42,158 nt of DNA, taken from contig PLLJ01000019.1 in NCBI GenBank assembly GCA_003140935.1, positions 57,191 through 99,348 of the forward strand, given 5' to 3'. The DNA is from Candidatus Omnitrophota bacterium (lineage in GTDB: Bacteria; Omnitrophota; Omnitrophia; Omnitrophales; Aquincolibacteriaceae). A model generated the notes under the pieces. The model did no database searches and was not told where the DNA came from. It saw only the letters and a program-made list of their open reading frames with translations. The position numbers and the translations under genes were made by a program. Of the stretch, positions 1 through 29,370 are shown piece by piece (position 1 is the stretch's first letter; every line of letters starts with the position of its first letter).

Positions 1-620
1 AAGATCAATTTCCCTTCTTCCGAAATGGATAAGTCCGGAAGATTTTCTAATTTTTTATTGTTTATGATCGCATTCAACAAATGATAGAGGGGATATTCTC
101 CATCGCCTTGGATGATGAAATCTATGTCCTGGCAATCGTGTTGGGTTCTCAGCAAATTGCTCCATGGCCCTTGGCCGCCTAATACGATCGTGGAATGGTA
201 TTTTCTCTTTATGAACCTCGTGTAGGCCAACGCGAACACCAAGTTGCTATCGTTTTCTATGTTCGCCGGCAGCGAGAGAAGGACGATCTGCCCGCCCCTT
301 AACGGCACCTTTGAATCTATTTTTTCCATAACGGATTCGACATAGGAGTCGCGGGAACCCTTGCAGTAATTTTTGATCCTTGGCATGTCAAAGAAGATCT
401 CTATATCCACCTTATCTTCCGGAGAAGTTGAATAATGATTATCGTAGTGGATCTTCATGTTGAGGTCGTCTTGCTCTAGGGAAAGACCGTGAGAGCGCAA
501 AAAGGAAGTGATCAGCCCGAGTCCCAAAGGAGGGATTAAGCAACAGTTGGGTTTGGAAGAAAACTGCCCTTTTTTAAAAAAACTTGGCAATCTTATTAAC
601 TTGATCTTAGGATTGCCCAT
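1..620 (-). CDS. B12-binding-type radical SAM protein, N-terminal part (runs off the left edge)
   Basis: The gene begins with ATG at 620 and stays open to the window edge, so only about 206 N-terminal residues are visible. They form a cobalamin-binding-like alpha/beta region: an IRLPSFF start, the LIPPLGLGLITSFLRSHG helix, DDLNMKIHYDNHYST, a hydrophobic strand ending STIVLGGQGP, and DIDFIIQGDGEYPLYHLL. These blocks align with residues 347-520 of the TPR-B12-radical SAM fusion at 4344-7058 (DDLHIKIHHDNYFSD, NPIIIIGGLAYFPE, DIDYAVCNEGE). A radical SAM domain should therefore follow outside the window, but its cysteines are not seen. The start overlaps the upstream SPASM gene by one base (TGATG), so translation is probably coupled. 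Family assignment is good; substrate is unknown. Confidence 0.82.
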   Translation of the reverse strand, partial: MGNPKIKLIRLPSFFKKGQFSSKPNCCLIPPLGLGLITSFLRSHGLSLEQDDLNMKIHYDNHYSTSPEDKVDIEIFFDMPRIKNYCKGSRDSYVESVMEKIDSKVPLRGGQIVLLSLPANIENDSNLVFALAYTRFIKRKYHSTIVLGGQGPWSNLLRTQHDCQDIDFIIQGDGEYPLYHLLNAIINNKKLENLPDLSISEEGKLI

Positions 621-1657
621 CACGAACCCTGGTCTATTTTTTCTTCTTCATACCAGCAATTGATGATGTGGTGGCAGTTTCTCTGACAATGCAGGATCTC
701 TTCGCGCCTTTCATTCGCCATTTGGGAATACCATATATCCTTCAGATCCCCGTCCCGGATATTGCCTATGGGCTTGATATAGGGGCAAAGATTCACGCTT
801 CCGTCCGGAGATACGGTAAAAGCGTTGTCGTTGAGAACGCTACACGACGTCTTTTTTATAAAATCCTGAGGCGCCTTAAAGTAACGCTTGAAAAGCTTGA
901 GTTGGGAGATCGAATTGTTGATCTTGTCTTTTCTGTCCTTCGGAGCGCTCTCCTTCAGCTTGATCAGTTCATCGATCACAAGATCGACCCGTTGGCTCTC
1001 TTTGGGCCAGAGGAATCTATATTCTTCCGAGTTATACCATGCCTCCACAGGAGCACTGTGAAAAGGCTGGACCACGGCTTGAAAAAAAACGGAGGTAAGC
1101 CTCTCGTCATTTTTTACATAATGGGCCAACTCCAAAAGCCCTTCCAAATTAGGGGCCATGATCACCGTATCGATGGCGATCTCCAGCGAGTTGCGGTATC
1201 TCGCTAAATATTCGATCGCCTTCATGAGCCTTCGGTAGCAATCCGGATTACCGCGCATATCATTATGGATCTCTTCTTTGAGGCTATACAAGGTCAAGGC
1301 GATATAGTTGAGTCCTGCCTCCGCGAGCCGCTTAGCCATTTTTTCATCCATTAAATAACCGCTTGTCGCTAACGATGTCCTGAATCCTCTCTGATGACAA
1401 GTGCTGATCAATTCCATGAGCGTATCTGACATCAACAACGGTTCCCCACCTCCAAAAATAACCGTAAAGTCGGAGCTAACAGGTTTATGGATGGAGGAAA
1501 TGAACTTTTTCCACTCCTGAAGGGTGGGCTTCACGACGTCTTTTTCGTTGTTCCCCCACAAATGACACATCCTGCATCTCAGGTTGCATCCGAGGGTAAG
1601 CAGTATCACGCAGGAACTTGGATCCTTAATTTTATGGTTACCCGTTACCGACATCAT
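620..1657 (-). CDS. Radical SAM/SPASM-like protein, paralog 10
   Basis: A 345-residue member of the local radical SAM family. The cluster motif is C24xxxC28xxC31 (CNLRCRMC), preceded eight residues earlier by Cys16. The SAM-binding motif is FGGGEPLL. The middle has QAVVQPF and a W...WP block (WYNSEEYRFLWP). The C-terminal SPASM-like part has a Cys, then NLCPYIKPIGNI, then HCQRNCHHIINCW (CX3CX5C), which should hold an auxiliary Fe-S cluster. The start at 1657 has a good AAAGGA site six bases upstream; ATG at 1654 is an alternative. The gene overlaps the upstream SGNH gene by 20 bases. It is separated from the nine-gene array by the TPR, B12-radical SAM and SGNH genes, and is followed by another B12-radical SAM gene, echoing the order near 7600. 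Substrate unknown. Confidence 0.9.
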   Translation of the reverse strand: MMSVTGNHKIKDPSSCVILLTLGCNLRCRMCHLWGNNEKDVVKPTLQEWKKFISSIHKPVSSDFTVIFGGGEPLLMSDTLMELISTCHQRGFRTSLATSGYLMDEKMAKRLAEAGLNYIALTLYSLKEEIHNDMRGNPDCYRRLMKAIEYLARYRNSLEIAIDTVIMAPNLEGLLELAHYVKNDERLTSVFFQAVVQPFHSAPVEAWYNSEEYRFLWPKESQRVDLVIDELIKLKESAPKDRKDKINNSISQLKLFKRYFKAPQDFIKKTSCSVLNDNAFTVSPDGSVNLCPYIKPIGNIRDGDLKDIWYSQMANERREEILHCQRNCHHIINCWYEEEKIDQGS

Positions 1658-2924: not shown

Positions 2925-2938
2925 AGGATGTTGCCCTT

Positions 2939-4354
2939 CTATTTTTTCAAGTTTTGCCACGCCGGTATTAAATTGAGCTCCGAAAAGACAGACGCCATTT
3001 TTTTATGCCTCTGGGTTCTCACTTGGATCGTATTGGACATATCCCGGGTAAACCACGCGTACCAGTCATGGATCATGGATCGGTCTATGTTATATTCCTC
3101 GAGATGGTCGAAGAGGTGCGTCCCCGGTCCGATGCTGCAAATATTGAGGCTGTTGATTTTATCAATAAGAGCGGAATTTTGTCTTATGAAATCCACCGTT
3201 TCGACGACGTCTTCTTCCGTTTCGCCCGGGAATCCGACGATAAGATTGATCTCTGCCCGCATCCCTGCTTCCTTAACCTTGACAAGCATGTCCTTGGAAT
3301 CCTTAACCGTGCTTCCCTTCGACATGAGTTTTAAGACATGATCGGAAAAGCTTTCCATGCCAAAGGTAAGACCTCCGCAACCGGCCTTTTTCATTTTTTC
3401 AATCAAGGCGCTACTCATATCTTTTCTGACCGTGGCTTGTCCGCCCCAAGCCACACCAAGATCCAAACCGATGAGCCGGGTGCAGAACTGATCCAGAAAT
3501 TCCAGGTCACCGTTGATCAGTAAATCACAGAATTCGAACCTTTTTCTGTTATATCGCTGAACGTGATATTTCATCTCCTGGACTACCTTTTCCGGATCCC
3601 GGGCTCTATAAGGCTTTTTCAAGGGTGAATCATAACAGAAAGTGCAGTTTCGTATACACCCCCTGCTGCTGATGAGCGGGATGAGATCTTTTTGGGTGTA
3701 AGCTTCGATATCAAACTCTTCAAAAGTAGGAAATGGGATCGTGTTGATATCCATAGATTCGGGGTGAATGGCCTTGAGACAAACCGCGGAGTCATCCGGA
3801 GAATCTTTCGAGACCAAACAATGGAAGTCCGCCATCGCAACATGCCTGTCCTGAACGCCTTTCAGTAGGCAAAGCAGTGGGTATTCGCCCTCCCCTGCCA
3901 CAAAATAATCGATCAGATCTTTTTGAAATAAAGAACGGCCTTCCCTGTAGCTAGCCCCACCCCCGCCGACGACGATCACCAAGTCGCGGTCAGCCGTTTT
4001 CTTTCGAAGCATTGACAGAAGCCTGTTCAAAAATGGAACGGAAGCGAAGGTGGCGGAAAAACCTAGGATGCCTGCATTGAAAGAGATTATTTTGTCAACC
4101 AGAGGCTCCATCCGACTTTGAAGACTGTCAACGGCTTTCCCGGACGCCCAAAATTCGAAATCCTGCGTATCCCACTTTCCTCTGATCTCTTCCGGAGAAT
4201 GAAGAAAGATATCCATGTTCAGATCATAGATCTCCGCATCAAAACCATGGGATTTCAGGAAGGTGACCAGATATGCAATCCCTAAGGGCGGGGCATAGCT
4301 GCCCCAGGGCGGGGACTGGATGAGAAGAATTCGGTCCGTTACTTTATTTTCCAC
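2939..4354 (-). CDS. B12-binding-type radical SAM protein
   Basis: A 471-residue protein with the usual two-part layout. The N-terminal cobalamin-binding fold runs from about 5 to 175, including SPPWGSYAPPLGIAYL, a VIVVGGGGASY strand and DYFVAGEGEYPLL. The radical SAM domain follows, with CIRNCTFC at C233xxxC237xxC240, a GMESFSD block and the NLIVGFPGETEED strand typical of the Elp3/MiaB-like fold. Family members include methyltransferases and enzymes that rearrange lipids or tetrapyrroles, so the reaction cannot be named. The start is GTG at 4354, inside the last codons of the upstream fusion gene (11-base overlap), and I see no strong ribosome binding site, which suggests coupling. It is not the closest relative of the B12 proteins at 1-620 and 4344-7058, whose N-termini match each other. 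Confidence 0.9.
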   Translation of the reverse strand: MENKVTDRILLIQSPPWGSYAPPLGIAYLVTFLKSHGFDAEIYDLNMDIFLHSPEEIRGKWDTQDFEFWASGKAVDSLQSRMEPLVDKIISFNAGILGFSATFASVPFLNRLLSMLRKKTADRDLVIVVGGGGASYREGRSLFQKDLIDYFVAGEGEYPLLCLLKGVQDRHVAMADFHCLVSKDSPDDSAVCLKAIHPESMDINTIPFPTFEEFDIEAYTQKDLIPLISSRGCIRNCTFCYDSPLKKPYRARDPEKVVQEMKYHVQRYNRKRFEFCDLLINGDLEFLDQFCTRLIGLDLGVAWGGQATVRKDMSSALIEKMKKAGCGGLTFGMESFSDHVLKLMSKGSTVKDSKDMLVKVKEAGMRAEINLIVGFPGETEEDVVETVDFIRQNSALIDKINSLNICSIGPGTHLFDHLEEYNIDRSMIHDWYAWFTRDMSNTIQVRTQRHKKMASVFSELNLIPAWQNLKK

Positions 4355-7058
4355 CGTAAATCAATGTCTTTGTTTTATATAACCCCGACCACTTCATATA
4401 CTCTTTTTCTTTGCGTATTTGCTCTACAAAGCGCATCTTTTCATCTCCCACGGAATAAAACAGTTCTTTTATCTTTTCTTTGTCGTCAAATTTAGAGTAG
4501 AGGAAAAATAAAAATTGTTCGTATTCGTGCTCCGGAAAAGGAGACCAGCCCAGGGTTTTTACGACTTTATTCACAGCCTTAATGATCTGCTTTCTTTTCG
4601 CGGGCCACTTCAGCCCTTTCACTTCATCAAAGCCAAATTTAACGAACGTAGAAAAGCCGTCCTCATAGCTGGATATCTCGAAAATATTGGCGATACCGTA
4701 TCGATCCGGATATTTGCATAATAAACTCGTATCCTTGATATTAAAGGCGTTGTAGTAGAGGGAATCTATGTTCTTTTTATTCTTTTTGACGAACGATATG
4801 GTTTCTTGGACGTCTTTTTCAGTTTCATAAGGCAAGCCCGCAATGATCTCGATGCCCGTCCATATGCCAGCCTCATTGGCTAAAGAGAGCTTTTCTTCCA
4901 GTTGCCCCAAGTCTATATCCTTATTGATATACTTCAACAGCCGGGGGCTGGCTGTCTCCATACCGAAAACCATTCTTATGCATCCGGCTTCCCGCATTTT
5001 ATAAATAGACTCCTTGTCTAATCTGTCCACCCTGACACAGTCGCTCCAACGTACCTTGAGCTTTCTCTTAATGATCTCATCACATACTTGATCCAGATAC
5101 CTTTTGGAAATATTCAGCGTATCATTAAGAAAAAGATACCCCGTAGGATTATATTTTTGCTGCAACTCTTCCAGCCATAAAGCCACCGTCTTGGGTTCCG
5201 TGATATGGATCAACCCTCCGAAGGAGCTTGCGCAAAAAATGCATCGATTCGTGCATCCTTTTGTGAACCTAAGCGGCAGCAGGAACATTCGCGACTCATT
5301 AAATTCTTTCACCGTATCGCGCAAACTCTCCTTGCGGATATAATCCGTCCTGAGGCCACGGTATTTGTACCGGTCCAAAGGCAACCCGTCAAAATCCGGC
5401 TTCATCGGCACGGGGATCTTCGTGCCATAGAACACCCTTTCCGTGGGCCGTTCGGCTGTTTTTTCTTTTAGCATCGAACCGCACAGCGCATATAACAATT
5501 TAGCCAGGACGGCTTCTCCCTCATTACACACCGCATAATCGATGTCGGGCCAATCGCACCCGAGTTTTTTCATAAGTTCCGGGAAATAGGCCAAACCACC
5601 GATAATGATGATCGGGTTATATTTTTTCTTTAAATATTTCGCCAAGCAAAGGCTGAACATGGCATGACTGAAATTCATCGAGCAGCTATCGAGGGAGAAC
5701 ATGACGATCTTGTATCCTTGGAATTCGGTCTTGCGTAAGACCGTTTCCATCATATGGTCTATTTCCGTGTCCTCTTTGCCTTGGGTGTAGGCAATGACCC
5801 TGGGATCCTCAAAAAATACTCCTTCGTCTATTTTCTCGTCGAGATTGTCGGAAAAATAATTATCGTGATGTATTTTAATATGCAGATCGTCCTGGGACAT
5901 GACCAACCCCCGGGCCCTCAGGTAGGCGACAATGCTGCCCATGGCCAAGGGAGGTAGCATGATGGAATTCATTTCCGTGGAGAGGACCTCGGGGCCATAA
6001 AAGTTAGGGATCCGTATCATCTTGATGGTGCAGTCCCCTTGTTGTTTCGTAAAATCCAGATCTCTGGAGAACACCTTGGGGACCTGTTCGGCATAATTAT
6101 TGCTAGCGCTCTTGAGCAGTTCTTCAACCGCCGGTCCATAATTTTTCTGTCGCATATGAAGTTGGGACATTAAATAACCGAATGATTCGTCAAGCATGCC
6201 CGCTTTTTTGATCTTCTGTAACTCCTCGAGACAAAGCAGCGGATTATCCTGCTTAAGATATATTTGGGCTAAGATCTTACGCGCATAACAGTCATCGGGA
6301 TCGATCTTTAAAGCCTGGTTAAAGTGCTCGACAGCATGTTTGAGGTCATCTTTTTGGTAATAGCACGTTCCGATATTGGAATGGAGCTGGCAATGCAAAG
6401 GATTGATCTTTAGAACGCGCTCGAATTCCTCTAAGGCCTTATCGAAATCTTCATTTTGTTGATGGCATAGGGCAAGCCCAAAGCGCGCGTGCTCGTTGTC
6501 CGGATCAACACTCAGAACATGGCGGAACTTTTCCGTGGCATCTTCAACGAGACCCTGCTCAAAACTACAAAGCCCCAGCCCTTCATAGGGATCAATGCTC
6601 TTAGGATTGACCTCAAGAGCGCGATTAAACTGCTGGATAGCCTCGGGGTATTTTTTTTCCTTAAGATAAACATGGCCCGATTTTAAGAGAGCAACATAAC
6701 ACAGCCCTAACCCAAAACGGGAATGCTCGCGGTTGGGATTGAACTTTAACACATGATTGAACTTCTCTATGGCCTCATCCAGACGGCCCTGTTCAAAATA
6801 ACAAAGCCCCAGACCTTCGTGGGGATCGATGCCCTTAGGGTCGATCTCGAGAGCGCGGTTAAACTGCTGGGTAGCTTCGGGGTATTTTTTTTGTTGAAGA
6901 TAAACATGGCCTAACTTGATCATGGCCGTTTTATTCTTGGGATTAAAATTCAGAACCTTGTTAAATTCCGCTATGGCGCCGTCATAGTCTTTCTTGTCCA
7001 GAGACCTCAGCCCAAGATCCAGAGTTTGAGATTCATCGAATGAATCGTCGTTAGGCAT
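4344..7058 (-). CDS. TPR - B12-binding - radical SAM fusion protein
   Basis: This 904-residue protein has three parts. TPR units fill about residues 11-325. A cobalamin-binding-like region covers about 345-530 (MIRIPNFYGPEV, DDLHIKIHHDN, IIIIGGLAYFPE). A radical SAM domain follows, with CTNRCIFC at C602xxxC606xxC609, FGMETASPRLL and IIAGLPYETEKDV. The TPR part contains a duplicated unit of about 78 residues (from about residue 49 and again from about 127), and the same unit occurs in the TPR gene just upstream. The TPR domain may hold partner enzymes or a carrier, which is inference. The gene overlaps the upstream TPR gene by eight bases. The B12 part resembles the truncated gene at 1-620, which starts directly at that domain and lacks the TPR region. 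The reaction is unknown. Confidence 0.9.
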   Translation of the reverse strand: MPNDDSFDESQTLDLGLRSLDKKDYDGAIAEFNKVLNFNPKNKTAMIKLGHVYLQQKKYPEATQQFNRALEIDPKGIDPHEGLGLCYFEQGRLDEAIEKFNHVLKFNPNREHSRFGLGLCYVALLKSGHVYLKEKKYPEAIQQFNRALEVNPKSIDPYEGLGLCSFEQGLVEDATEKFRHVLSVDPDNEHARFGLALCHQQNEDFDKALEEFERVLKINPLHCQLHSNIGTCYYQKDDLKHAVEHFNQALKIDPDDCYARKILAQIYLKQDNPLLCLEELQKIKKAGMLDESFGYLMSQLHMRQKNYGPAVEELLKSASNNYAEQVPKVFSRDLDFTKQQGDCTIKMIRIPNFYGPEVLSTEMNSIMLPPLAMGSIVAYLRARGLVMSQDDLHIKIHHDNYFSDNLDEKIDEGVFFEDPRVIAYTQGKEDTEIDHMMETVLRKTEFQGYKIVMFSLDSCSMNFSHAMFSLCLAKYLKKKYNPIIIIGGLAYFPELMKKLGCDWPDIDYAVCNEGEAVLAKLLYALCGSMLKEKTAERPTERVFYGTKIPVPMKPDFDGLPLDRYKYRGLRTDYIRKESLRDTVKEFNESRMFLLPLRFTKGCTNRCIFCASSFGGLIHITEPKTVALWLEELQQKYNPTGYLFLNDTLNISKRYLDQVCDEIIKRKLKVRWSDCVRVDRLDKESIYKMREAGCIRMVFGMETASPRLLKYINKDIDLGQLEEKLSLANEAGIWTGIEIIAGLPYETEKDVQETISFVKKNKKNIDSLYYNAFNIKDTSLLCKYPDRYGIANIFEISSYEDGFSTFVKFGFDEVKGLKWPAKRKQIIKAVNKVVKTLGWSPFPEHEYEQFLFFLYSKFDDKEKIKELFYSVGDEKMRFVEQIRKEKEYMKWSGLYKTKTLIYGGK

Positions 7059-7410
7059 TTTTTTGCCCGGCGCTTATTTTCATTTGGCGGGTTACGTACT
7101 TCAACATTTCATTGGCCTGGGCATGCTTGGGACGGATCTTCAAAGCACGCTTGAACGCCTCCGCAGCCTTGGCGTGTTCTTGTTTTGTGTTGTAGCACAA
7201 CCCCAAACCAAAATGAGAATGTTCGTTGTTGGGATTAAGCTTTAACACATGATTGAATTCCTCAATGGCCTCATCAAGACGGCCCTGTTCAAAATAACAG
7301 AAGCCCAGGCCCTCGTGGGGATCGATGCCCCGGGGATCGATCTCAAGAACACGGTTAAACTGCTGAATGGCTTCGGGATATTTTTTTTGCTGAAGATAGA
7401 CATGGCCCAA
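6462..7410 (-). repeat. Three copies of a TPR-coding DNA repeat (about 219-234 bp)
   Basis: Closely related copies lie at about 7192-7410, 6696-6914 and 6462-6680. Each encodes GHVYL..KKYPEA.QQFNR.LE..P, then DP.EGLG.C.FEQG, then NEH..FGL.LC. The first copy is in the stand-alone TPR gene; the other two are in the N-terminal half of the fusion gene. DNA-level identity is high by eye, for example the shared strings ggccctgttcaaaataaca and tggggatcgatgccc in the first two copies. This suggests recent duplication across the gene boundary. Edges are approximate. Confidence 0.75.
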
Positions 7411-7596
7411 CTTCACAATGGCGATCTCATTCTTGGGGTTAAAGCCCAGGACTTTGTTAAACTCTGCGATGGCGCGGTCATGTTCTTTCTTGTTCAAATA
7501 TACGATGCCAAGATCCAGAGCTTGAAATTCTTCCGGCAGCAAATTGTAATGGGCGTCATCTTTTCTGTTCTTGAAAAAACCCAACCATTTAAACAT
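7051..7596 (-). CDS. TPR repeat protein
   Basis: A 181-residue protein made almost wholly of tetratricopeptide repeats from about residue 26 to 170, after a short basic N-terminus (MFKWLGFFKNRKDD). Typical TPR positions are visible: GIVYLNKKEHDRAIAEFNKV, GHVYLQQKKYPEAIQQFNRV, GFCYFEQGRLDEAIEEFNHV and FKRALKIRPKHAQANEML. There is no signal peptide, so it should be cytoplasmic. The start at 7596 has a strong AGGAGG site and overlaps the upstream SPASM gene by eight bases; the 3' end overlaps the fusion gene by eight. Its repeats are nearly the same as those of the fusion gene. A scaffold role for the radical SAM enzymes is plausible but inferred. Confidence 0.92.
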   Translation of the reverse strand: MFKWLGFFKNRKDDAHYNLLPEEFQALDLGIVYLNKKEHDRAIAEFNKVLGFNPKNEIAIVKLGHVYLQQKKYPEAIQQFNRVLEIDPRGIDPHEGLGFCYFEQGRLDEAIEEFNHVLKLNPNNEHSHFGLGLCYNTKQEHAKAAEAFKRALKIRPKHAQANEMLKYVTRQMKISAGQKNA

Positions 7597-8596
7597 GTCC
7601 TACCTCCTCTTCGAAAAAACAGTTGATCATTGATTTGCAGTTGTCTTTGCAGTGCTTAATGCTATCTCTGACACGCTGGGCCTCTGCAGAAAACCAGATT
7701 TCTTCCATGCTCCTTCCGTCCCGGATATCCCCTATGGAATCCATGGATAAACATAGGAATATTTTTCCGGATGTGTTCACGCTTATTGAATTATACCCTA
7801 GATTGCATTTTGAGACCCTAACAAATCTTTCGGGATGCCTAAAATAAGATCTGAATATTTTGAACTGGGGAGCGGGGTTGTTTATTTTGTACCCTTTGTT
7901 TTTAAGATCCGTGAGACTGTCCAAAACACGCTCTGCTTTATCCGTATCCGTGGGCCAAAGAAACGAGAATTTCTGGTTTTTGTACCATTCATTGTCCTGA
8001 GGCGTAAAGAAGGGCTGCACCACCGCTTGAAAACTGATGCTATCGATGACCTGGCTTCGATTCACCCAATCTGCAAGCTCTAACAGCTCATCCAGATTTT
8101 GACGCATGATGGTGGTCACCACGTGGATCTTCAGCGAATCTTTCCTGAACTGACCCAATAACTCAATGGCGTTCATGACTTTGTCGTAGGTGCCATGGAC
8201 GCCACGTAAAAAATCGTGGGTTTCCTTTTTGATGCCGTCCAATGAAAAAACGATTGTGCTTAAACCGGAATCTGCAATGTCGCGGGCCATAGGGGCATCG
8301 ACCAAAGAACCGTTGGTCGTCATGGTGGTGGAAAACCCTTTGAGCGCCGCTTGTTTGATAAGGTCCAGGAGCCCCTTTTTGATCAGAGGTTCTCCCCCAA
8401 CGAATTGGATCTGCGCCTTACTGCCCACAAAATCCGCAAAGGAATCTATGAATTTTTTCCACGCTTCGATGTCCGGGCTTCGCGCGTCGCTCTTGCTCTG
8501 CCACATATAACACATCTTGCATTTCAGCATACAAGCTTCCGTGATAATGAGATCACAAAAACTTGGCTTTTGCTGTTGTGGTGTGTTCGTATCCAT
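7589..8596 (-). CDS. Radical SAM/SPASM-like protein, paralog 9
   Basis: About 335 residues from ATG 8596, which has AAGG eight bases upstream; ATG 8602 is also possible. The cluster motif CMLKCKMC lies at C22xxxC26xxC29, with the family's extra Cys eight residues before it (SFCDLIITEAC). The SAM motif is FVGGEPLI, and SLDGIKKETHDFLRGV is a strong family block. QAVVQPF and FLWPTD mark the middle. The C-terminal SPASM-like part has KCNLGYN, FLCLSMDSIGDI and HCKDNCKSMINCF. It is the last of nine consecutive paralogs and overlaps the TPR gene downstream by eight bases. Its sequence is closest in feel to paralog 10 at 620-1657. The reaction is unknown; SPASM enzymes often act on peptides, but no precursor peptide is seen here. 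Confidence 0.9.
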   Translation of the reverse strand: MDTNTPQQQKPSFCDLIITEACMLKCKMCYMWQSKSDARSPDIEAWKKFIDSFADFVGSKAQIQFVGGEPLIKKGLLDLIKQAALKGFSTTMTTNGSLVDAPMARDIADSGLSTIVFSLDGIKKETHDFLRGVHGTYDKVMNAIELLGQFRKDSLKIHVVTTIMRQNLDELLELADWVNRSQVIDSISFQAVVQPFFTPQDNEWYKNQKFSFLWPTDTDKAERVLDSLTDLKNKGYKINNPAPQFKIFRSYFRHPERFVRVSKCNLGYNSISVNTSGKIFLCLSMDSIGDIRDGRSMEEIWFSAEAQRVRDSIKHCKDNCKSMINCFFEEEVGHV

Positions 8597-8607
8597 GATC
8601 ATCGCCT

Positions 8608-9585
8608 TCAGAGTAAATCCTTATCATCAAAACAATTAAGAACATTCAAACAGCTTTCTCTGCATTCATAGATCTGCTTTCTTCGCGAGGCGGCCTCCTC
8701 TGAATTCCAAAGATCCTTGATATGCTTTTCGCGGATGTTCCCAATGGGTTGCATGGAGCCGCACAACAAAACCTCTCCGGTCGGCCGGATATAGATCACA
8801 TAGTCGCCCTGATTACACACCTTGCCATCGCGCACTTTGTCGGGCCGCTTAAAATAGGCTCTGAATGTCTCGAGCTGTTGGATGGAATTGGATATTTTAT
8901 AGCCTTTGTTCTTACGCTCTATGAGTTGGCCGATGACAAAATCGAGCTGCGCCTTATCATGGGGCCAAAGATAACTATGTTCGGCCTTATCGAACCACTG
9001 CAGGTCCTTTGCCGTCGCAAGAGGCTGTGAGATCGCCTGAAAATAAACGGAACTCAATTTTTCATTCGCGTTGATCCAATCAGCCAGCTTGATCAAGCGA
9101 TCCATGTTGGCCCCCATGATCACCGAAAGGATGCTGATGCTTTTGGCTCCGTACTTATTCAGGTATTCGATCGCCTGGAGTGCGCGCCGGTGAGCGCCCG
9201 GGGTCCCCCTCAAAAAATCATGGGTGCTTTCGTCCATACTGTCCAAGGAAATGCTGATCACATCCAACCCCGAATTCACGATCCTCTTGGCCATGGCCTC
9301 ATTGACGAGAAAACCATTCGTCACCATGACGGTCGTGAACCCTTTTTTATTGGCGAATTCTATGAGATCCAGCATGCCTTCTTTGATCAGCGGCTCACCT
9401 CCGGCAAAATGAATGCGCGTCTTGTTGCCGCCCATTTCTTCGAGGGAAACAATGAAATTCTTCCATTCCTCGATCGATAGCTCGCGAGGATTCTTAGAGC
9501 TCTGCCACAACCTGCACATTTTGCATTGAAACATGCAGTTTTCCGTGATCCCGATGTCGCAAAAAACAGGGATTTTCATAACCAT
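8608..9585 (-). CDS. Radical SAM/SPASM-like protein, paralog 8
   Basis: About 325 residues. The start is ATG 9585, with an AGAAGGAG site eight bases upstream; an in-frame TTG at 9612 would overlap the upstream gene and is less likely. The Fe-S motif CMFQCKMC (C17xxxC21xxC24) follows the family's VFCDIGITENC lead. Other blocks are FAGGEPLI, SLDSMDESTHDFLRGTPG, QAISQPL, YLWPHD, KVCNQGD, LLCGSMQPIGNI and ECRESCLNVLNCF. It lies 16 bases after the previous paralog's stop and 11 before the next start. Two features match all nine siblings: the W...WP block before the helical region and the C-terminal CX3CX5NC. Catalysis by SAM cleavage is expected from the family; the substrate is not known. Confidence 0.9.
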   Translation of the reverse strand: MVMKIPVFCDIGITENCMFQCKMCRLWQSSKNPRELSIEEWKNFIVSLEEMGGNKTRIHFAGGEPLIKEGMLDLIEFANKKGFTTVMVTNGFLVNEAMAKRIVNSGLDVISISLDSMDESTHDFLRGTPGAHRRALQAIEYLNKYGAKSISILSVIMGANMDRLIKLADWINANEKLSSVYFQAISQPLATAKDLQWFDKAEHSYLWPHDKAQLDFVIGQLIERKNKGYKISNSIQQLETFRAYFKRPDKVRDGKVCNQGDYVIYIRPTGEVLLCGSMQPIGNIREKHIKDLWNSEEAASRRKQIYECRESCLNVLNCFDDKDLL

Positions 9586-9601
9586 GGTCCGCGCTCCTTC
9601 T

Positions 9602-10636
9602 CTATTCTGCAAAAAAACAGTTCAAGATGTTATTACAGCTTTTCTGGCAATGGCGCATGGCGGCTCTTGTTTTCACGGCGGCCTCCGAGTTCCAGATGTC
9701 CCTGATGCTCTGCTTTTTAATATTACCAACAGGGCGCATAAAACAGCACAGCATCACGAGCCCTAGCACATTGACGTTGAAAGTATAATCGCCGAAATGG
9801 CAGTCATGGGCGCGGACAAAGGATTCCGGGTTTCCATAATACTTTTTGTAAGCAACGAGCTGCGGCATCGCGTTGAGGATCCGGTACCCCGCTTTTTTGT
9901 ACGTCATCAGCATGTCCAGCGTCAGGGACACCTTCTCAAAGTCCGTCGGCCAGAGAAGCCCGTACTCTTTGTCTAAATACCACTGATCGATCGGGTCCGT
10001 CCGGAAGGGCTGGGAAAGCGCCATGACGGAGATCCCGGTGAGAAACTCCTCTTTGTTCACCCATTCGATGAGATCCTTGATGCTGTCAAGATTACGGTTC
10101 GAGAGCACGGCATGAATGTTGATATGGCCTTTTTTCCAGTGTTTTTTGAGATATTCGATCGCTTTCATGATCCGTTTGTAGGAGCCGGGTACGCCCGTTA
10201 GAAAATCCTGCGTATTTTCGTCGAGCGTGTCCAGTGAGACGCCAAGCCTCCATAAGCCGGCATCGGCTATTCTTTTAGCCATATCCTCATTGATCAGCGT
10301 GGCATTCGTAGAAACACAAGCGCGGATACCTTCCTTGGCGCAGAGTTCGATCAGGTCCAGCATGTTCTGTTTGAGAAGCGTTTCTCCTCCCCCGAGATTG
10401 AGCTCAAACGTGGGCGGAACCCAGCCCTTGAGCGAGAGGATGAAATCCCTGCACTCCTCGAAGGTGACCTCGTCTTCGAGCCAGTAGCCGTTCCTCCAGA
10501 AATAACATTTTTTGCATTTTAAATTGCATCTTTCCGTCACTAAAAAATCGCAATAGGAAGGAAGGTCGGCCTTGGCCGCGGATTCCTTGTTCTGTGGGCT
10601 CGTAGGGGCCACGGAAGGGTCTTTCACATCACTCAT
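9602..10636 (-). CDS. Radical SAM/SPASM-like protein, paralog 7
   Basis: A 344-residue paralog with an N-terminal extension of about 25 hydrophilic residues (Pro/Ala/Lys rich) before the SYCDFLVTERC lead. The cluster motif is CNLKCKKC at C37xxxC41xxC44. The SAM-binding motif is LGGGETLL, with Thr in place of the usual Pro after the Glu. SLDTLDENTQDFL replaces the usual THDFLRG, a noticeable departure from the siblings. QPFRT, WYLDKEYGLLWPTD, HDCHFGDYTFNV, MLCCFMRPVGNI and HCQKSCNNILNCF complete the family pattern. ATG 10636 has an AAGGAG site. A 71-base gap lies upstream, one of the few real gaps in the array. These differences may reflect another substrate, which is inference. Confidence 0.9.
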   Translation of the reverse strand: MSDVKDPSVAPTSPQNKESAAKADLPSYCDFLVTERCNLKCKKCYFWRNGYWLEDEVTFEECRDFILSLKGWVPPTFELNLGGGETLLKQNMLDLIELCAKEGIRACVSTNATLINEDMAKRIADAGLWRLGVSLDTLDENTQDFLTGVPGSYKRIMKAIEYLKKHWKKGHINIHAVLSNRNLDSIKDLIEWVNKEEFLTGISVMALSQPFRTDPIDQWYLDKEYGLLWPTDFEKVSLTLDMLMTYKKAGYRILNAMPQLVAYKKYYGNPESFVRAHDCHFGDYTFNVNVLGLVMLCCFMRPVGNIKKQSIRDIWNSEAAVKTRAAMRHCQKSCNNILNCFFAE

Positions 10637-10707
10637 CGAAATGCATCTCCTTGATTTGAATGAATTTTATGATCAAAGCGGATCCTCTCAAGCAAGCGCG
10701 CAGAAGA

Positions 10708-11697
10708 TCAGATCTCTTCATCCTCTTTGAAAAAGCAATTGACCATATTATTGCAGTTCAGGTTGCAAGTGTGCATCCACTCCCTCGCTTGAACGGCCTT
10801 TTCGGAGAACCATAAAGCCTTGATATCATCCTTCTTGATATTGCCGATCGGTTCCTTAAAACAACAAAGCGAAATGTTCCCGACGGGATCCGTGTTGATG
10901 ACATAGTCCCCCAAATAACATGTCGCTTTTCGCGCCCTTTTGGTGGGATCCGCAAAATAAGTCTTATACACTTGAAGCTGCAGCGGAAAATTATGCAAAG
11001 GATACCCCGTTTTCCTCATCTCGATCAGCTCGTCCAACACGGCGTTCATCTTCGCCATGTCCTTGGGCCAGAGGAAACCATACTGTTCGCTCTGGTGCCA
11101 GTGATTATCGAGCGGCACAAAGAACGGCTTCGCGATCGCCTGGCAGTAAATCCCGCTCAGGAATTTCGCCTCTTTGACCCATTTCACCAGATCGACCACC
11201 TCGGTATAATTCACCCCCGAAATGACCGCGATGATGCCGATCCTCAGATCGGGACAGAATTTTTGAAGATTTTCGAAGGCCCTCATGACCCTTTTGTGGG
11301 CTCCCGGCACGCCCCTCAAAAAATCGTGCGTCTCCTCGCGGGTGCTATCGAGCGATATGAAGATCTCCTTGAGGCCGGAATCCCTTATTTTTTTCGCTAT
11401 TTCCTCGTCGATGAGATACCCGTTGGACGGCATGAGGGTTTTAAAACCTTTGTCGGTTCCGAACCTGATCAGTTCAAAGATATCTTTCCTTAATAGGGGC
11501 TCGCCCCCGCTGAACACCAGCTCTTTCGGGCCGTCCAGCAGGCCCTCAAGGGAACCGATGAAATGTTTCCATTCTTCCGTTGAGGTTTGATAGAAATCCT
11601 CTTTCGCTTTCCACATTTCGCACATCTTGCAGCGAAACAAACAATTCGGCAGCAGAACGATGGAACAGGAGTTGGGTCTGTTAGTGTTCGTTTTCAT
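10708..11697 (-). CDS. Radical SAM/SPASM-like protein, paralog 6
   Basis: 329 residues. The cluster motif is CLFRCKMC (C19xxxC23xxC26), after NSCSIVLLPNC. The SAM motif is FSGGEPLL; SLDSTREETHDFLRGVPG, QAIAKPF (Lys instead of Gln before Pro), QYGFLWPKD, ATCYLGDYVIN, SLCCFKEPIGNI and TCNLNCNNMVNCF follow. The gene starts 17 bases inside the end of the upstream paralog with no clear ribosome binding site, so it probably depends on translational coupling. The C-terminal Cys pattern predicts an auxiliary cluster as in SPASM enzymes. The protein has no signal peptide or membrane segment and should act in the cytoplasm. Substrate unknown. Confidence 0.9.
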   Translation of the reverse strand: MKTNTNRPNSCSIVLLPNCLFRCKMCEMWKAKEDFYQTSTEEWKHFIGSLEGLLDGPKELVFSGGEPLLRKDIFELIRFGTDKGFKTLMPSNGYLIDEEIAKKIRDSGLKEIFISLDSTREETHDFLRGVPGAHKRVMRAFENLQKFCPDLRIGIIAVISGVNYTEVVDLVKWVKEAKFLSGIYCQAIAKPFFVPLDNHWHQSEQYGFLWPKDMAKMNAVLDELIEMRKTGYPLHNFPLQLQVYKTYFADPTKRARKATCYLGDYVINTDPVGNISLCCFKEPIGNIKKDDIKALWFSEKAVQAREWMHTCNLNCNNMVNCFFKEDEEI

Positions 11698-12664
11698 AGT
11701 AGCAATTGACCACCAGTTCGCAGTTTCGCCTGCAACTGCTCATTTGTTTACGGATATCCTCGGCCTTCGAAGAACGCCAAAGTTCCGCAATGTTATCGGT
11801 TTTGATATTACCGAGTTTCTCCATGAAAAAGCACAGATAAACATCTCCCAGGGCGTTCACATTGACGGCCTGGTCGGAAACGTTGCAGCGTTTCGACTTA
11901 ATAAAATGATCCGGGCTTTTAAAGTAGTCTTTGAACGACTGTAATTGTCCCACAGGATTTTCTATTTTCCGGTAAGATTTCTTCATCTCGATGATTTTAT
12001 TTAATACGCTCTCTGCTTTAGAATAATCCGCAGGCCACAAATCCCTGAACTCCTCTTTTTTAAACCATTCCCAATCGACCGGAGCACCGAAAGGGCGCAT
12101 CACGGACATAAAATACAGGGAATCCAAAAATTCATTCTGCTCGACCCATTCGGCCAATCCGACAATATCATCTAGATTCGATGCCGTGATAATAGAGTTG
12201 ATGCCCAGTTTCATTCCTTTTTTCCCGATACGCTTAAAATGTCCCAGGGCATTCATGGCTTGCTGAAAACAACCTTCCCGGCCTCTTAAACGGTCATGAA
12301 CCGAAGGGTTCAGGCTTTCCAGCGATAGATTCAACATGCTTAAACCCGAGTCGACAAGCCCCTGAGCCATGGTTTCGTTGATAGGATATCCGGAGGAGGT
12401 CATCACCGTCCTGGAACCCTTCCCCCTGATGTGGCTTATTAAGTCCAATATCCCTTTCTTAATGAGGGACTCTCCGCCGATAAGATGCACCTCCATAGGA
12501 TCAGAGTTCAACTGGTCCAGGGAATCTACGAATTTTTTGCAATCCTCGATATGGATCTCATCTTTGGCGGTATCCAGTTTCCACAATTGGCACATTTTGC
12601 AGCGCAAAACGCACTGGTTGGTTACGGTCAAGAGACATGTCCTGGGCTTTTTGATCTCCACCAT
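11681..12664 (-). CDS. Radical SAM/SPASM-like protein, paralog 5
   Basis: 327 residues, among the most compact copies. The cluster motif is CVLRCKMC (C18xxxC22xxC25), after RTCLLTVTNQC. The SAM motif reads LIGGESLI, so the Pro after the Glu is Ser. LSLESLNPSVHDRLRGREG is a variant of the family's SLD...THDFLRG block. The middle has MSVMRPF and FRDLWPADYS; the end has RCNVSDQAVNVNALGD, YLCFFMEKLGNI and SCRRNCELVVNCYY. It starts four bases after the stop of paralog 4 and overlaps paralog 6 by 17 bases. Paralogs 4 and 5 share the LIGGE variant, which suggests they form a subgroup. The reaction cannot be named from sequence. Confidence 0.9.
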   Translation of the reverse strand: MVEIKKPRTCLLTVTNQCVLRCKMCQLWKLDTAKDEIHIEDCKKFVDSLDQLNSDPMEVHLIGGESLIKKGILDLISHIRGKGSRTVMTSSGYPINETMAQGLVDSGLSMLNLSLESLNPSVHDRLRGREGCFQQAMNALGHFKRIGKKGMKLGINSIITASNLDDIVGLAEWVEQNEFLDSLYFMSVMRPFGAPVDWEWFKKEEFRDLWPADYSKAESVLNKIIEMKKSYRKIENPVGQLQSFKDYFKSPDHFIKSKRCNVSDQAVNVNALGDVYLCFFMEKLGNIKTDNIAELWRSSKAEDIRKQMSSCRRNCELVVNCYYENEH

Positions 12665-12668
12665 CAGC

Positions 12669-13697
12669 TCACTTCGGAATATAATCCGTTATATTTTCGA
12701 TCTTATAGAAACAATTTACGGCGATATCGCAATCCTTTTGGCATCGGTTGATCTCATCCTGGGCATTTTGCATTTCTTTCGATGCCCACACTTCGGAAAA
12801 CTTTTTTTCTCTTATGTTCCCGATAGGAGGCATACAAAAGCACATGTTGATATCGCCGTAAGCATTAACCTCTGGAGCCAGATCTCCTCGGGGGCACTTT
12901 ATCCTGCTGTCGTGGATGAATCGGTACGGATTCTTAAAATACTCCTTCACGAGCCTTAACTGCTCCGGAGGATTACAGATCTTGTATCCCCGCTCTTTGC
13001 AGACTGCCAGATACTCAAGAACCTTATGGACTTTTTCCAGATCCTGCGGCCAAACATCGCTATTCCTTGTGTTCTTGAACCACTCCCGTTCCTGATCATC
13101 GCAATCAAAAGGTTGCAAACAAGCATTGATAAAAAGGTCGTTGATCTTCTCGTTGCTGTTCGCCCATTCCGTAAGATCTCTGACCTCGTCTAAATTCTTA
13201 TCCATTAAAGTCATCGTAAGGCCGATGCTCAGGCGGTCCCCTTTATTCTGCCCCCGGTGTTTGTCCAGAAGTTCGATGGCATTCATGACTCTGGCATGGC
13301 TTCCCTTGATCCCTCTCAGGTAGTCATGGGTTTCTTCCTTAAAACCATCGAGGGAAAGAAAGATGCCGTTCAACCGGGACCGGACGATCTCTTTCGCCTT
13401 CTCTTCATCGATATAGAATCCATTGGTTGTGATGGAACTGCTGAACCCCTTCTCCCTGATATAAGAAACGATCTTGAAAAGATCCTTTCTCAAAAAAACC
13501 TCTCCTCCGATCAGGTGGATAAAGATCGGATCGGTCGTGACATTGCGCAGGTCATCGACAAACCCCTTGATCTCGTCAAGGTTCAACTCTTTCCTGTCAA
13601 TCGGCCTCTCTGCGTTTTTCCACATATTGCACATTTTGCAACGGAAATTACACGTCTTTGAGACCACCAACAGGCAAAAAGCGGGCGCTGCTCTCAT
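12669..13697 (-). CDS. Radical SAM/SPASM-like protein, paralog 4
   Basis: 342 residues. The motif CNFRCKMC is at C16xxxC20xxC23, after AFCLLVVSKTC. The SAM motif is LIGGEVFL, the most divergent of the ten, with Val-Phe replacing Pro-Leu; Gly-Gly-Glu is kept, so activity is still expected. SLDGFKEETHDYLRGIKG, NACLQPFDCD, the W...WP block (WFKNTRNSDVWPQD), KCPRGDLAPEVNAYGD, NMCFCMPPIGNI and RCQKDCDIAVNCFY follow. It carries a few extra residues around the middle (CDDQERE) compared with siblings. The start at 13697 overlaps the upstream stop as ATGA and has an AAGGAGAG site ten bases upstream. Substrate unknown. Confidence 0.9.
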   Translation of the reverse strand: MRAAPAFCLLVVSKTCNFRCKMCNMWKNAERPIDRKELNLDEIKGFVDDLRNVTTDPIFIHLIGGEVFLRKDLFKIVSYIREKGFSSSITTNGFYIDEEKAKEIVRSRLNGIFLSLDGFKEETHDYLRGIKGSHARVMNAIELLDKHRGQNKGDRLSIGLTMTLMDKNLDEVRDLTEWANSNEKINDLFINACLQPFDCDDQEREWFKNTRNSDVWPQDLEKVHKVLEYLAVCKERGYKICNPPEQLRLVKEYFKNPYRFIHDSRIKCPRGDLAPEVNAYGDINMCFCMPPIGNIREKKFSEVWASKEMQNAQDEINRCQKDCDIAVNCFYKIENITDYIPK

Positions 13698-14728
13698 GTT
13701 TTTTTCTCTCCTTGGGTCGTCGCCTCGGGTTCAAAAAAGCAGTTAGCCATGATATGGCAATTCTTCCGGCAGGCGTAGACCGCCTCCCGGGTCTTTTTCG
13801 TCTGCGGCGCCGACCATATGGCGGGCAGGGACCCTGTCTTGATATTCCCGATCGGATCCATCAGACAGCAAAAGAACACTTTGCCGTAAGGATCCACATG
13901 AAATTCGTAGTCCCCAAGATTGCATTTGACCTTTCTCAAGAATTTGTTTGGAGCGAGAAAATAGTCGCTGAACTGCAAAAAATGATCTGGGTGATTTCCT
14001 ATCTTGTATCCCTTAACCTTGAGTTCCCGCAGCCGCTGCATCACCGCCGAGGCCTTTGAAGGATCTTGAGGCCACAGAGCGCTGTTCCTTTCTTTCCGGG
14101 TCCAATCCGCATCCATCTCCTCGCCAAAAGGCTGCGTCACCGCCTGAAAACTGATCATATCCAGCCGCTTGTCCTGCTGTACCCACTCGACAAGGTCCAG
14201 GATCTCATCCATGTTTTTTTCCATGATCGTAGTCAAGATGGCAATCCGAAGTTTCCGGTCGCTGAACCCGTTGAGATGCTCGATCGCCTGAAGGATCTTC
14301 TGGTGGCTGCCTGCCATGCCGCGCAGCGAATCATGCGTCGCGGCCGTTAAGCCGTCCAAAGAAAAGGTCACTGTTCCAAGCCCGGAATCGACGAGCTTTT
14401 CCGCCACGGCCTTGTTGACCAGAAAGCCGTTCGTCACCAGATTTGTTTTGTGTCCTTCTTCATGAATAAAACGGATCAGATCAAAGATGCCCTCTGTCAA
14501 AAGAGGCTCACCACCGGAAAGATGAAACTCGAACCCGGGATCTACAAGTTCGCGCAAAGAACGGACGAATTTCTTTTTTTCTTCCAAGGTCGTTTCGACC
14601 TTCCCATCATCATGCACATCCCAAATGCGACACATGCGACAGCGGAACATGCAGCGATAGTTCAGGACCCAGCAGCAAAAACGCGGCTTTGTTTCCGGTT
14701 CGTTCTTTTTTTTGAATAGGGAGAACAT
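13694..14728 (-). CDS. Radical SAM/SPASM-like protein, paralog 3
   Basis: About 344 residues from ATG 14728, which has AGAGG five bases upstream; an in-frame TTG at 14749 is a weaker alternative. A basic N-terminal stretch (MFSLFKKKNEPETKP) precedes RFCCWVLNYRC and CMFRCRMC (C26xxxC30xxC33). The SAM motif is LSGGEPLL. SLDGLTAATHDSLRGMAG, QAVTQPF, the W...WP block (WTRKERNSALWPQD), KCNLGDYEFHVDPYG, FFCCLMDPIGNI and ACRKNCHIMANCFF complete the pattern. The doubled Cys in the lead (CC) is shared with paralogs 1 and 2, so these three form a subgroup at the front of the array. The 3' end overlaps the next gene as ATGA. Substrate unknown. Confidence 0.9.
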   Translation of the reverse strand: MFSLFKKKNEPETKPRFCCWVLNYRCMFRCRMCRIWDVHDDGKVETTLEEKKKFVRSLRELVDPGFEFHLSGGEPLLTEGIFDLIRFIHEEGHKTNLVTNGFLVNKAVAEKLVDSGLGTVTFSLDGLTAATHDSLRGMAGSHQKILQAIEHLNGFSDRKLRIAILTTIMEKNMDEILDLVEWVQQDKRLDMISFQAVTQPFGEEMDADWTRKERNSALWPQDPSKASAVMQRLRELKVKGYKIGNHPDHFLQFSDYFLAPNKFLRKVKCNLGDYEFHVDPYGKVFFCCLMDPIGNIKTGSLPAIWSAPQTKKTREAVYACRKNCHIMANCFFEPEATTQGEKKT

Positions 14729-14755
14729 TACGGCCTCTTTTTGCGACAAGAACTT

Positions 14756-15784
14756 TTATCCATTCGTCTTGGGGACGGTCTCTTCCTTATAAAGCATCGG
14801 GTCGTCCTCAACATAGCAACAGTTGAGGAGAAGATGACAATTGCTCTTGCATGCATCGACTTTCTTGCGGATAAGGTCCGCATCCTGCGAACGCCACAGT
14901 GTCCTGATATCATCCTGCCGGATATTCCCGATAAAATCCTTAAAAAGGCAAAGCTGGATGAACCCATACGCATTCACGCTGATGGCCCTTCCCCCAACGA
15001 TACATTTGACTTTGTTCACAAGCTTTTTGGGATCGTTGAAGTACGCTTTATAGGCCCTCAAATGCTCGACCCTGTTCGATATCTTCGAACCGTTCTGTCT
15101 CAACCGGATCAATTCATCCAAAAGCGTCGTGACCTTCACTTTGTTCTCCGGCCAAAGAAATACATTCTCTTTCTGCCACTCGTCAGTAAAGGGGCCGCTG
15201 TAATTCGGCTGAACAATAACCATGAAATAGATCCAATTCACACGCGGGTCGCCGTCCGCGAACCGGACAAGTTCTGGGATATCATTCACGCTCTCGTTCA
15301 TAATGATCGAGCACAAACCTTTTTGGGTTTTCGGGGCATATTTTGTGAGATTGTCGAGCGCACCCATGACACGGTCATACACTCCGGGGATCCCTCGCAT
15401 CTTGTCATGCGTTGCGGCCAAATGACTGTCGAGCGACAGGCTCACGGCATCCAGACCCGCATCCCCGATCCTTTTGGCCATGTCTTCATTGATCAGATAA
15501 CCGTTGGACGCCACAGTCGTCCTGAACCCTTGCTCTTTGGCATATTTGACAAGCTCCAAGAGACCGGGCATTGAAAGAGCCTCCCCTCCGCCAAAATCCA
15601 TCTCGAAACCTTCATCCACCAGTTCTCGGAATTGGGCAATGAATCTTTTCCATTCCTCAATGCTCGGAGTTTCTCCCGGTTTTGGTTGAGGCTCATGCCA
15701 TTTGTTGCACATCTTGCAACGCAACATGCAAAAGTCTGTGGCTGCGATACAGCAGAACATGGGCTTCAGATCCATTTCGCTCAT
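14756..15784 (-). CDS. Radical SAM/SPASM-like protein, paralog 2
   Basis: 342 residues. The motif CMLRCKMC lies at C19xxxC23xxC26, after MFCCIAATDFC. The SAM motif is FGGGEALS, with Ala replacing Pro after the Glu. SLDSHLAATHDKMRGIPGVY, MVIVQPNYS, a W...WP block (WQKENVFLWPEN), KCIVGGRAISVNAYG, QLCLFKDFIGNI and ACKSNCHLLLNCCY follow. It shares GGGEAL, MRGIPGVYDRVM-type and QPN blocks with paralog 1, so the two look like a later duplication. A 76-base gap precedes it, and ATG 15784 is followed by another in-frame ATG at 15775. The ribosome site is GGTGG or GGGAG slightly upstream. A substrate cannot be assigned. Confidence 0.9.
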   Translation of the reverse strand: MSEMDLKPMFCCIAATDFCMLRCKMCNKWHEPQPKPGETPSIEEWKRFIAQFRELVDEGFEMDFGGGEALSMPGLLELVKYAKEQGFRTTVASNGYLINEDMAKRIGDAGLDAVSLSLDSHLAATHDKMRGIPGVYDRVMGALDNLTKYAPKTQKGLCSIIMNESVNDIPELVRFADGDPRVNWIYFMVIVQPNYSGPFTDEWQKENVFLWPENKVKVTTLLDELIRLRQNGSKISNRVEHLRAYKAYFNDPKKLVNKVKCIVGGRAISVNAYGFIQLCLFKDFIGNIRQDDIRTLWRSQDADLIRKKVDACKSNCHLLLNCCYVEDDPMLYKEETVPKTNG

Positions 15785-15860
15785 ATGATTCCACCCGCTC
15801 CCTTCATTTCTTTTAACCTTGAATAATGTATACGCACATTAACGAAAAAATTCACTGGGC

Positions 15861-16934
15861 TTAACTAACAGCTTCTGTCACAAAAGGATAATCGCCCTCG
15901 TAATAACAATTCAGCAGAAAATGACAATTGTCTTTGCAGCCGAGGATCTTCTTTCTCGCATTTTCCGCGGCCTCTGAGTACAAAACAGTGGCCAGATCGT
16001 CCTTCTTGATATTGCCAAGATGATCCCAGCGATAACACAGAAAGATGTCCCCGATGGAACTCACATGCACCCCTTTATTCAGATTGCATTGGCCGACCTT
16101 CACAAACCGGTCGGGATAACGGTAATAGGCCTGAAATGCCATGAGCTGCTGAACGGAATTCCCGATAAGAAAACCCCTGTTCCTTAAATGGATCAGTTCT
16201 TCGATCACTTTGATGGCCTTTTCCCTATCTTTGGGCCAATGAAGGTCCAGTTCTCCTCCCTCGTACCATTTGTCCTGTACGGGCGTATTGTTCGGCTGCA
16301 TGGCCGCCATGAAAAGAATGGATTTGAGCCTCGGATCATCGTTGACCCAGTGGGCCAGGGGAATAATCTCGTCGAGATTCGCGTCCATGATGATACTGCA
16401 TATCCCCACGTGGAGGCCGGGACAATGCTTGTGCAAAAGCTCGATGGCCCTCATGACACGGTCATAGACCCCAGGAACACCCCTGAAAAAATCATGCTTT
16501 TCGGGTTTCAAGCTGTCCAGCGAAAGGATCATACTATGCAGACCGGAATCGGCGATCCGTTTTGCCATTTCTTTATCGAGAAGATACGCGTTGCTGGCAA
16601 TGGCCATTTTAAAACCCAGATCGGAACAGAACTTCACAAATTCCCATAACCACTTGACCATCAGCGCCTCGCCGCCGCCGATATCGATCTCAAATCCTTT
16701 GTCGACAACGGTTCTGAGAGACACGGCGGCTTTCTTCCATTCTTCCAGCGTCGCTGCGGGATGCTGCCTGATGACCTCTTCGCCTTTCCACTTCTGACAC
16801 ATCTTGCAACGCAGCATGCAGTCATCCGTCACGGCAAAACAACAGAACCCGGGTTTCACCCTTCCGTTCATCAAAGGTTGCACTTCCGCAGGCCTACTTT
16901 CCTTTTTCCCTGAAAAAAGTCCTTTTATATCCAT
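15861..16934 (-). CDS. Radical SAM/SPASM-like protein, paralog 1 (front of array)
   Basis: 357 residues, the longest paralog, with about 30 extra N-terminal residues (MDIKGLFSGKKESRPAEVQP) before GFCCFAVTDDC and CMLRCKMC (C39xxxC43xxC46). The SAM motif is IGGGEALM. SLDSLKPEKHDFFRGVPGVY, MAAMQPNNT, a W...WP block (WYEGGELDLHWPKD), QCNLNKGVHVSSIGD, FLCYRWDHLGNI and GCKDNCHFLLNCYY follow. It starts 13 bases after the stop of the double radical SAM gene, with GAGGG ten bases upstream that overlaps that stop. The short FSGKKE lead resembles the FSLFKKKNE lead of paralog 3. Family and cofactor use are clear; the target molecule is unknown. Confidence 0.9.
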   Translation of the reverse strand: MDIKGLFSGKKESRPAEVQPLMNGRVKPGFCCFAVTDDCMLRCKMCQKWKGEEVIRQHPAATLEEWKKAAVSLRTVVDKGFEIDIGGGEALMVKWLWEFVKFCSDLGFKMAIASNAYLLDKEMAKRIADSGLHSMILSLDSLKPEKHDFFRGVPGVYDRVMRAIELLHKHCPGLHVGICSIIMDANLDEIIPLAHWVNDDPRLKSILFMAAMQPNNTPVQDKWYEGGELDLHWPKDREKAIKVIEELIHLRNRGFLIGNSVQQLMAFQAYYRYPDRFVKVGQCNLNKGVHVSSIGDIFLCYRWDHLGNIKKDDLATVLYSEAAENARKKILGCKDNCHFLLNCYYEGDYPFVTEAVS

Positions 16935-24414: not shown

Positions 24415-24432
24415 TTGTAGCAATCCTGTCTT

Positions 24433-29248: not shown

Positions 29249-29370
29249 CACAAAAATACCTTTTGGATCACGGCCTTGAGATCCCTCTGTGAGTTCCGCC
29301 GGAGATCCCGGATTTTAATTTGAAAAATTCCACCGCAAATAAAAGAAGCCGGAAAAAGGATCGAGGCGGT

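Follow-up and report, generated by a model that had tools for sequence, protein, structure and literature searches.

The known diversity of glycans is attributed to glycosyltransferases and to sugar-nucleotide enzymes, and the sugar-acting radical SAM enzymes described so far work singly. Among radical SAM enzymes, the Twitch type (BtrN/MoaA/SkfB) has a truncated SPASM domain with one auxiliary cluster. The full SPASM domain has the seven-Cys motif CX9-15GX4C-gap-CX2CX5CX3C-gap-C and two clusters (PMC6231123); the same paper, on SkfB, warns that sequence clusters in this family are no guide to function. HpnJ, the bacteriohopanetetrol (BHT) cyclitol ether synthase, converts the hopanoid-linked BHT glucosamine to a cyclitol ether (PMC12583986). 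In ABC-transporter-dependent surface polysaccharide loci, the Wzt component often recognises a chemically modified chain end via a carbohydrate-binding domain (PMC9445017).

In this work, we describe a locus that resembles Wzm/Wzt O-antigen and surface polysaccharide loci in having a WecA-like initiator, glycosyltransferases, a Wzm/Wzt exporter with a C-terminal beta domain, and presence or absence at a fixed chromosomal site. It differs from them in that radical SAM enzymes outnumber glycosyltransferases and in that a Wzt extension in such array loci can contain as many as 11 beta domains, for which Pfam has no match. HpnJ is the nearest NCBIfam model for the N-terminal half of the protein encoded at 16948-19728, but this protein scores far below the cut-off and is fused to a radical SAM/SPASM half, and no hopanoid genes were seen in the island. 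Like BtrN, BlsE and DesII, the array proteins have a barrel and, putatively, a C-terminal Fe-S domain (TM 0.71/0.73 for BlsE; BtrN matches the auxiliary-cluster region), although identity is 12-17% and those are stand-alone small-molecule enzymes, not arrays. By E-value, the best sequence and fold matches are the RiPP maturases SkfB, SuiB and CteB; unlike these, the array proteins have no RRE before the barrel and their gene string has no precursor peptide gene. Our literature search turned up no O-antigen locus described as having a radical SAM battery, and no paper on polysaccharide loci with tandem radical SAM/SPASM genes or on Omnitrophota with radical SAM arrays; a paper on the Cariaco Basin refers to radical SAM genes and to Omnitrophota in general terms only. 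The suggestion of an undescribed system, made in an initial annotation of this DNA, agrees with that search.

Results

The window, that is, the whole stretch of 42,158 nucleotides analysed, is contig C23:57191-99348 of a 2.4-Mb genome, a metagenome-type draft with close matches in Omnitrophota. Its minus strand carries ten nearly gapless array ORFs, one at 620-1657 (g01) and nine between 7589 and 16934 (g02 to g10). The initial annotation had given ten radical SAM genes, nine of them in tandem, and we recovered the same coordinates. Two extra orthologous family members lie a short way downstream of the window (L001 9066-10874 and L001 8087-9064), so the full locus comprises twelve array genes, not ten. 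In total, 19 of the 63 radical SAM domains of the genome fall within 32 kb here, with a chance of about 1e-20 under uniform placement. Elsewhere in the same genome, contig C14:19795-28097 (L002 of genome G000) has six radical SAM domains in 8.3 kb that are outside the array family.

The gene g01 lies 3' of accessory genes and in the same gene string as the other nine. The genes in between have overlapping ends and, also on the minus strand, encode an SGNH/GDSL hydrolase with TPR and a hydrophobic N-terminal segment (1638-2960), present in other arrays too, a B12-binding radical SAM protein (2939-4354) whose orthologue at the same place in G094 (L013) is 57% identical, a TPR protein fused to radical SAM (4344-7058) and a TPR protein (7051-7596). 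Array genes overlap as well, for example by 4 bp (g07/g08) and 17 bp (g05/g06), and only two gaps in the string exceed 60 bp (74 and 79 bp). Such overlapping or near-touching genes point to a putative shared transcript. Promoter-like sites did not exceed chance level, and the promoter and terminator scans gave no evidence on transcript limits. Rfam and tRNA searches returned no match. At the window start, the N-terminal part of a further B12/radical SAM protein (3-623, minus strand) belongs to a gene split into two frames by two N at C23:57189-57190, just before the window; the split is likely an assembly artefact.

All ten array proteins match Pfam Radical_SAM (E 2e-18, for g10, to 3e-27) and, g10 falling marginally below the cut-off, Pfam SPASM. 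Aligned over their length, they constitute one family with pairwise identities of 31-44% (33-39% against the first member) and an invariant CX3CX2C motif (C24/C28/C31), which 173 of 176 family members keep. L006 1380-3386 encodes a 669-aa array protein with two domains, the first of which is missing CX3CX2C. The C-terminal domain has five invariant Cys, in the pattern C266-X12-G279-X4-C284 and C318-X3-C322-X5-C328, so that the seven-Cys SPASM motif is not present in the array proteins. With five conserved Cys against seven, the domain therefore appears Twitch-like. At the level of sequence, the Cys set is compatible with one auxiliary cluster and the region matches BtrN. The SPASM-like label of the initial annotation has the Pfam matches behind it, but Twitch-like appears to be the better one. 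All 6 members of the positional group d1 are devoid of three of the five auxiliary Cys. The downstream gene L001 9066-10874 encodes an array member with a fused TPR tail, and its lack of three of the five is common to its orthologues in six genomes.

The predicted structure of g02 has a pLDDT of 93.5. Its nearest solved folds are SkfB (top), BlsE, SuiB, CteB, anSME, MoaA, DesII and BtrN, a mixture of peptide-acting and sugar-acting enzymes, the latter including BlsE, DesII and BtrN. All ten proteins hit dozens of radical SAM models in NCBIfam without approaching the cut-off of any. The top match to the sactisynthase SkfB, followed by SuiB, CteB and anSME, might suggest a RiPP pathway in which every radical SAM enzyme would have one residue or one precursor as its target and the peptide would leave through the ABC pair, all the more as the B12-radical SAM protein at 2939 resembles RiPP C-methyltransferases (rSAM_ocin_1, 7e-35). 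Nevertheless, radical SAM homology starts at residue 11-35 in all ten proteins, leaving no N-terminal RRE, and the 74- and 79-bp gaps leave no room for a conserved precursor within the string, where we found neither an RRE domain nor a precursor peptide gene. Moreover, the exporter is of the Wzm/Wzt type and the remaining locus consists of glycan genes. We therefore regard a RiPP pathway as unlikely.

The genes upstream of the array, all on the minus strand, start with a double radical SAM protein (16948-19728) composed of an HpnJ-like B12-radical SAM half and a radical SAM/SPASM half. It is followed by a small membrane protein of 99 aa (19725-20024), which G084 has too, a Wzt-type ATPase with a coiled coil and C-terminal beta domains (20021-23548; residues 762-867, partial, and 959-1154), a Wzm-type ABC-2 permease (23545-24423), a GT2 glycosyltransferase (24433-25380), a UDP-galactopyranose mutase (UGM) homologue (25805-27121; 4dsg, E 4e-50), a WecA-like polyprenyl-phosphate sugar-phosphate transferase (27118-28098; Glycos_transf_4, 4e-34) and, at the upstream edge of the island, a GT1/GT4-type glycosyltransferase (28088-29251). 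The exporter matches are ABC2_membrane (5e-15), galactan Wzm/RfbD (2e-20) and Wzt/RfbE (3e-48), below the family-specific NCBIfam cut-offs. Judged by homology, the locus has the Wzm and Wzt of an ABC-transporter-dependent surface polysaccharide locus, together with the initiating polyprenyl-phosphate transferase and glycosyltransferases of such a locus. Downstream, the island encodes B12- and TPR-linked radical SAM proteins, SGNH hydrolases, a PMT_2 glycosyltransferase, a class-V aminotransferase of the cysteine-desulfurase type, a WbuX-type amidotransferase, a carbamoyltransferase, two GT1, one GT2 and two NAD-epimerases. This context recurs: all 11 arrays with enough upstream sequence directly follow Wzm and/or an extended Wzt, and UGM and WecA-like genes are recurrent upstream of arrays.

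The HpnJ-like half of the double radical SAM protein reaches 237 bits, below the HpnJ NCBIfam equivalog cut-off of 577.6. This match, and weaker ones to ladderane and GDGT-synthase models, might indicate that a hopanoid-, ladderane- or tetraether-like lipid is built or modified, rather than its sugar part. However, HpnJ itself acts on the sugar head group, not on the ring system (PMC12583986), and every one of these matches is far below its family cut-off. We identified no genes for lipid assembly in the island, which is rich in glycan genes, and we consider a lipid product improbable. In favour of a link to glycan, an HpnJ-like B12-radical SAM protein from another phylum is fused to a GT2 glycosyltransferase (L037 1255-3831, in a MAG labelled Deltaproteobacteria).

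The surface-glycan island around the array spans 54.5 kb and is missing at the same site, between conserved genes, in two congeners (G018 and G015). In G018, the island-flanking CHASE2 gene directly adjoins genes located 54.5 kb away in the window genome. In the congener G084, the same site holds an exporter, a double radical SAM and a B12-radical SAM gene, and no array members were found in the 19.9 kb that were read there; also in this genome, a frame open for about 1470 codons (L116 3555-7964) apparently combines two halves of the B12-radical SAM type with one of the radical SAM/SPASM type. Another insert of about 16 kb, with no array or exporter homologues, occupies this chromosomal site in G005 (L119 1400-18000). 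The GC content is 47% in the island and 51.7% in its flanks. This pattern of presence, absence and base composition is the behaviour of a variable surface-glycan locus.

The Wzt extension is made up of a beta domain of approximately 190 residues, present in 3 copies in G051, in 11 in G080 and as one full and one partial copy in the window. The G080 protein (L088 1429-9657) is a Wzt of 2743 aa with eleven beta domains behind the ATPase. In sister loci, the same domain is found at the N-terminus of radical SAM/SPASM proteins and at the C-terminus of HpnJ-like B12-radical SAM proteins and of PMT_2 glycosyltransferases; in the window's own locus it was found in Wzt only. It has no Pfam match, and a PDB search with its profile returned nothing at E 10. 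Its structural model is weak (pLDDT 65), with carbohydrate-active enzymes as best folds in marginal matches. The domain is present in 25 of the 29 array genomes against 48 of the 355 others (p 3e-16, a value that is only a guide because genomes are not independent samples), and in all 22 of the strongest array genomes.

A scan of genome contigs located the array family chiefly in Omnitrophota and in the form of tandem arrays with 4 to 16 copies. Across the phylum, 29 of 384 genomes gave strong array matches; they belong to the class of the window and to further classes, and none of the genomes listed for the window's own genus and family matched strongly. As that search scored only five candidates in each genome, its copy counts are lower bounds. 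Genomes of family f46 have a shorter form of the locus, with 4-5 array members. Eight tandem array-family genes lie near GT2 and polysaccharide deacetylase genes at L036 21-9341, in a bin labelled archaeon (host or mis-binned).

A tree of 176 family members groups them by array position and not by genome. Ten of the 13 positional groups are clean splits with support of 0.95-1.0 and approximately one member per genome: d1, d2, g03 (8608-9612, support 1.0), g04 (9602-10636, 0.99), g05 (10708-11697, 0.95; 82% identical to its G155 orthologue), g06 (11681-12664, 0.97), g07 (12669-13697, 1.0; the LIGGEVFL variant, 53-80% identical to its positional orthologues), g08 (13694-14749, 1.0), g09 (14756-15784, 1.0) and the Twitch-type g10 at array position 10 (15861-16934, 0.98; a clade of 8 genomes). 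The group of g01 includes one extra G080 member (support 0.996), that of g02 (7589-8602) forms a split whose base lacks support, and g11, which is missing from the window, is not clean in the tree. Reciprocal best hits revealed no order inversions relative to the window in any long array; when seven long arrays, taken from the window's class and others, were all compared with one another, 3 of 545 pairs were discordant. Among long arrays, orthologues are 41-87% identical, against 31-44% for paralogues, with an orthologue dN of 0.1-0.33 and a saturated or near-saturated dS. Array orthologues are under purifying selection.

Positional clades, fixed order and low dN together indicate that the set is old and maintained one to one. 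These results bear out the initial annotation in its proposal of an old divergence after duplication, in that proteins of one array position cluster together whatever their genome, and of members that are each distinct, their positional identity being conserved in tree and order. The same orthologues recur in the same order in related genomes, including other Omnitrophota classes; the proteins are neither drawn from unrelated families nor, in homologous loci, reduced to one or two copies. The annotation had also suggested a diversity-generating set, in which interchangeable copies would be variably expressed or recombined. The range of 4 to 16 copies across genomes would suit such a set, but the one-to-one orthologues, the order fixed across classes, purifying selection and the lack of near-identical copies, recent duplication or shuffling in the window make it very improbable.

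We found 22 positions conserved within orthologue groups and different between them. They include i/i+2 pairs on barrel strands 1, 2 and 3 (17/19, 66/68 and 93/95), and position 162 lies on strand 5; this arrangement suggests that the pairs and position 162 point to a common side, which is probably the inside of the barrel. Outside helices, group-specific positions were not significantly enriched (3/22 vs 27/92). Every member of g09-g11 has Cys at position 162, and no other group does; this Cys is a candidate hydrogen donor. Given the differences between groups, including Cys162 and the loss of Cys in d1, it may be that members differ not only in substrate but also in chemistry. The group-specific pairs and the restriction of Cys162 argue against a glycan locus in which most array enzymes are redundant, having one repeat unit or nucleotide sugars as their common target instead of separate chain sites. 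The shorter f46 locus, and the exporter and double radical SAM of G084 with no array member in the stretch read, fit such redundancy better, and on balance we hold it to be unlikely.

Discussion

The array proteins belong to one family with positional orthology, conserved gene order and purifying selection, in a polysaccharide export context with a shared beta domain. With fair confidence, we consider it probable that the array is an old, differentiated, non-redundant battery of radical SAM enzymes with Twitch domains, by which a lipid-linked glycan is edited ahead of its export in a Wzm/Wzt locus. That the glycan is the direct substrate, which reactions take place, the allotment of one site to each enzyme and any order of action are what we infer.

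In such a pathway, synthesis of the lipid-linked glycan would begin in the cytoplasm with the WecA-like enzyme, and glycosyltransferases, supplied with UDP-Galf, would extend the chain. The array enzymes and the HpnJ-like B12-radical SAM proteins could then alter individual sugars by C-H chemistry, with epimerisation, dehydrogenation, ring rearrangement and C-methylation as candidate reactions, each array enzyme possibly having its own conserved site or substrate. The shared beta domain may tether several radical enzymes and the exporter to the polymer. Wzm/Wzt would export the edited chain, which SGNH hydrolases may trim or acylate.

A bolder version, possible but doubtful in our opinion, is a collinear polysaccharide assembly line, in which a dozen radical SAM enzymes docked via the beta domain would each edit one defined sugar, so that the gene content of the array would encode the fine structure of the glycan. 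The initial annotation had also spoken of an assembly line; the collinearity and non-redundancy of the array are consistent with that term, but the substrate and sequential action it implies are conjectural.

The locus is best read as otherwise recognisable as of the ABC-dependent surface-polysaccharide type, its novelty lying in the radical SAM battery, and we see a real but minor chance that it embodies a new biosynthetic logic. If the proposed editing of the glycan is true, a conserved set of twelve or more such enzymes in an export locus would be a new way of writing polysaccharide structure during or after assembly, and the orthologues, with their matched specificity differences, would offer a means of studying substrate choice by radical SAM barrels. 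The new family of domains of approximately 190 residues would likewise serve as a marker for such loci across this uncultured phylum.
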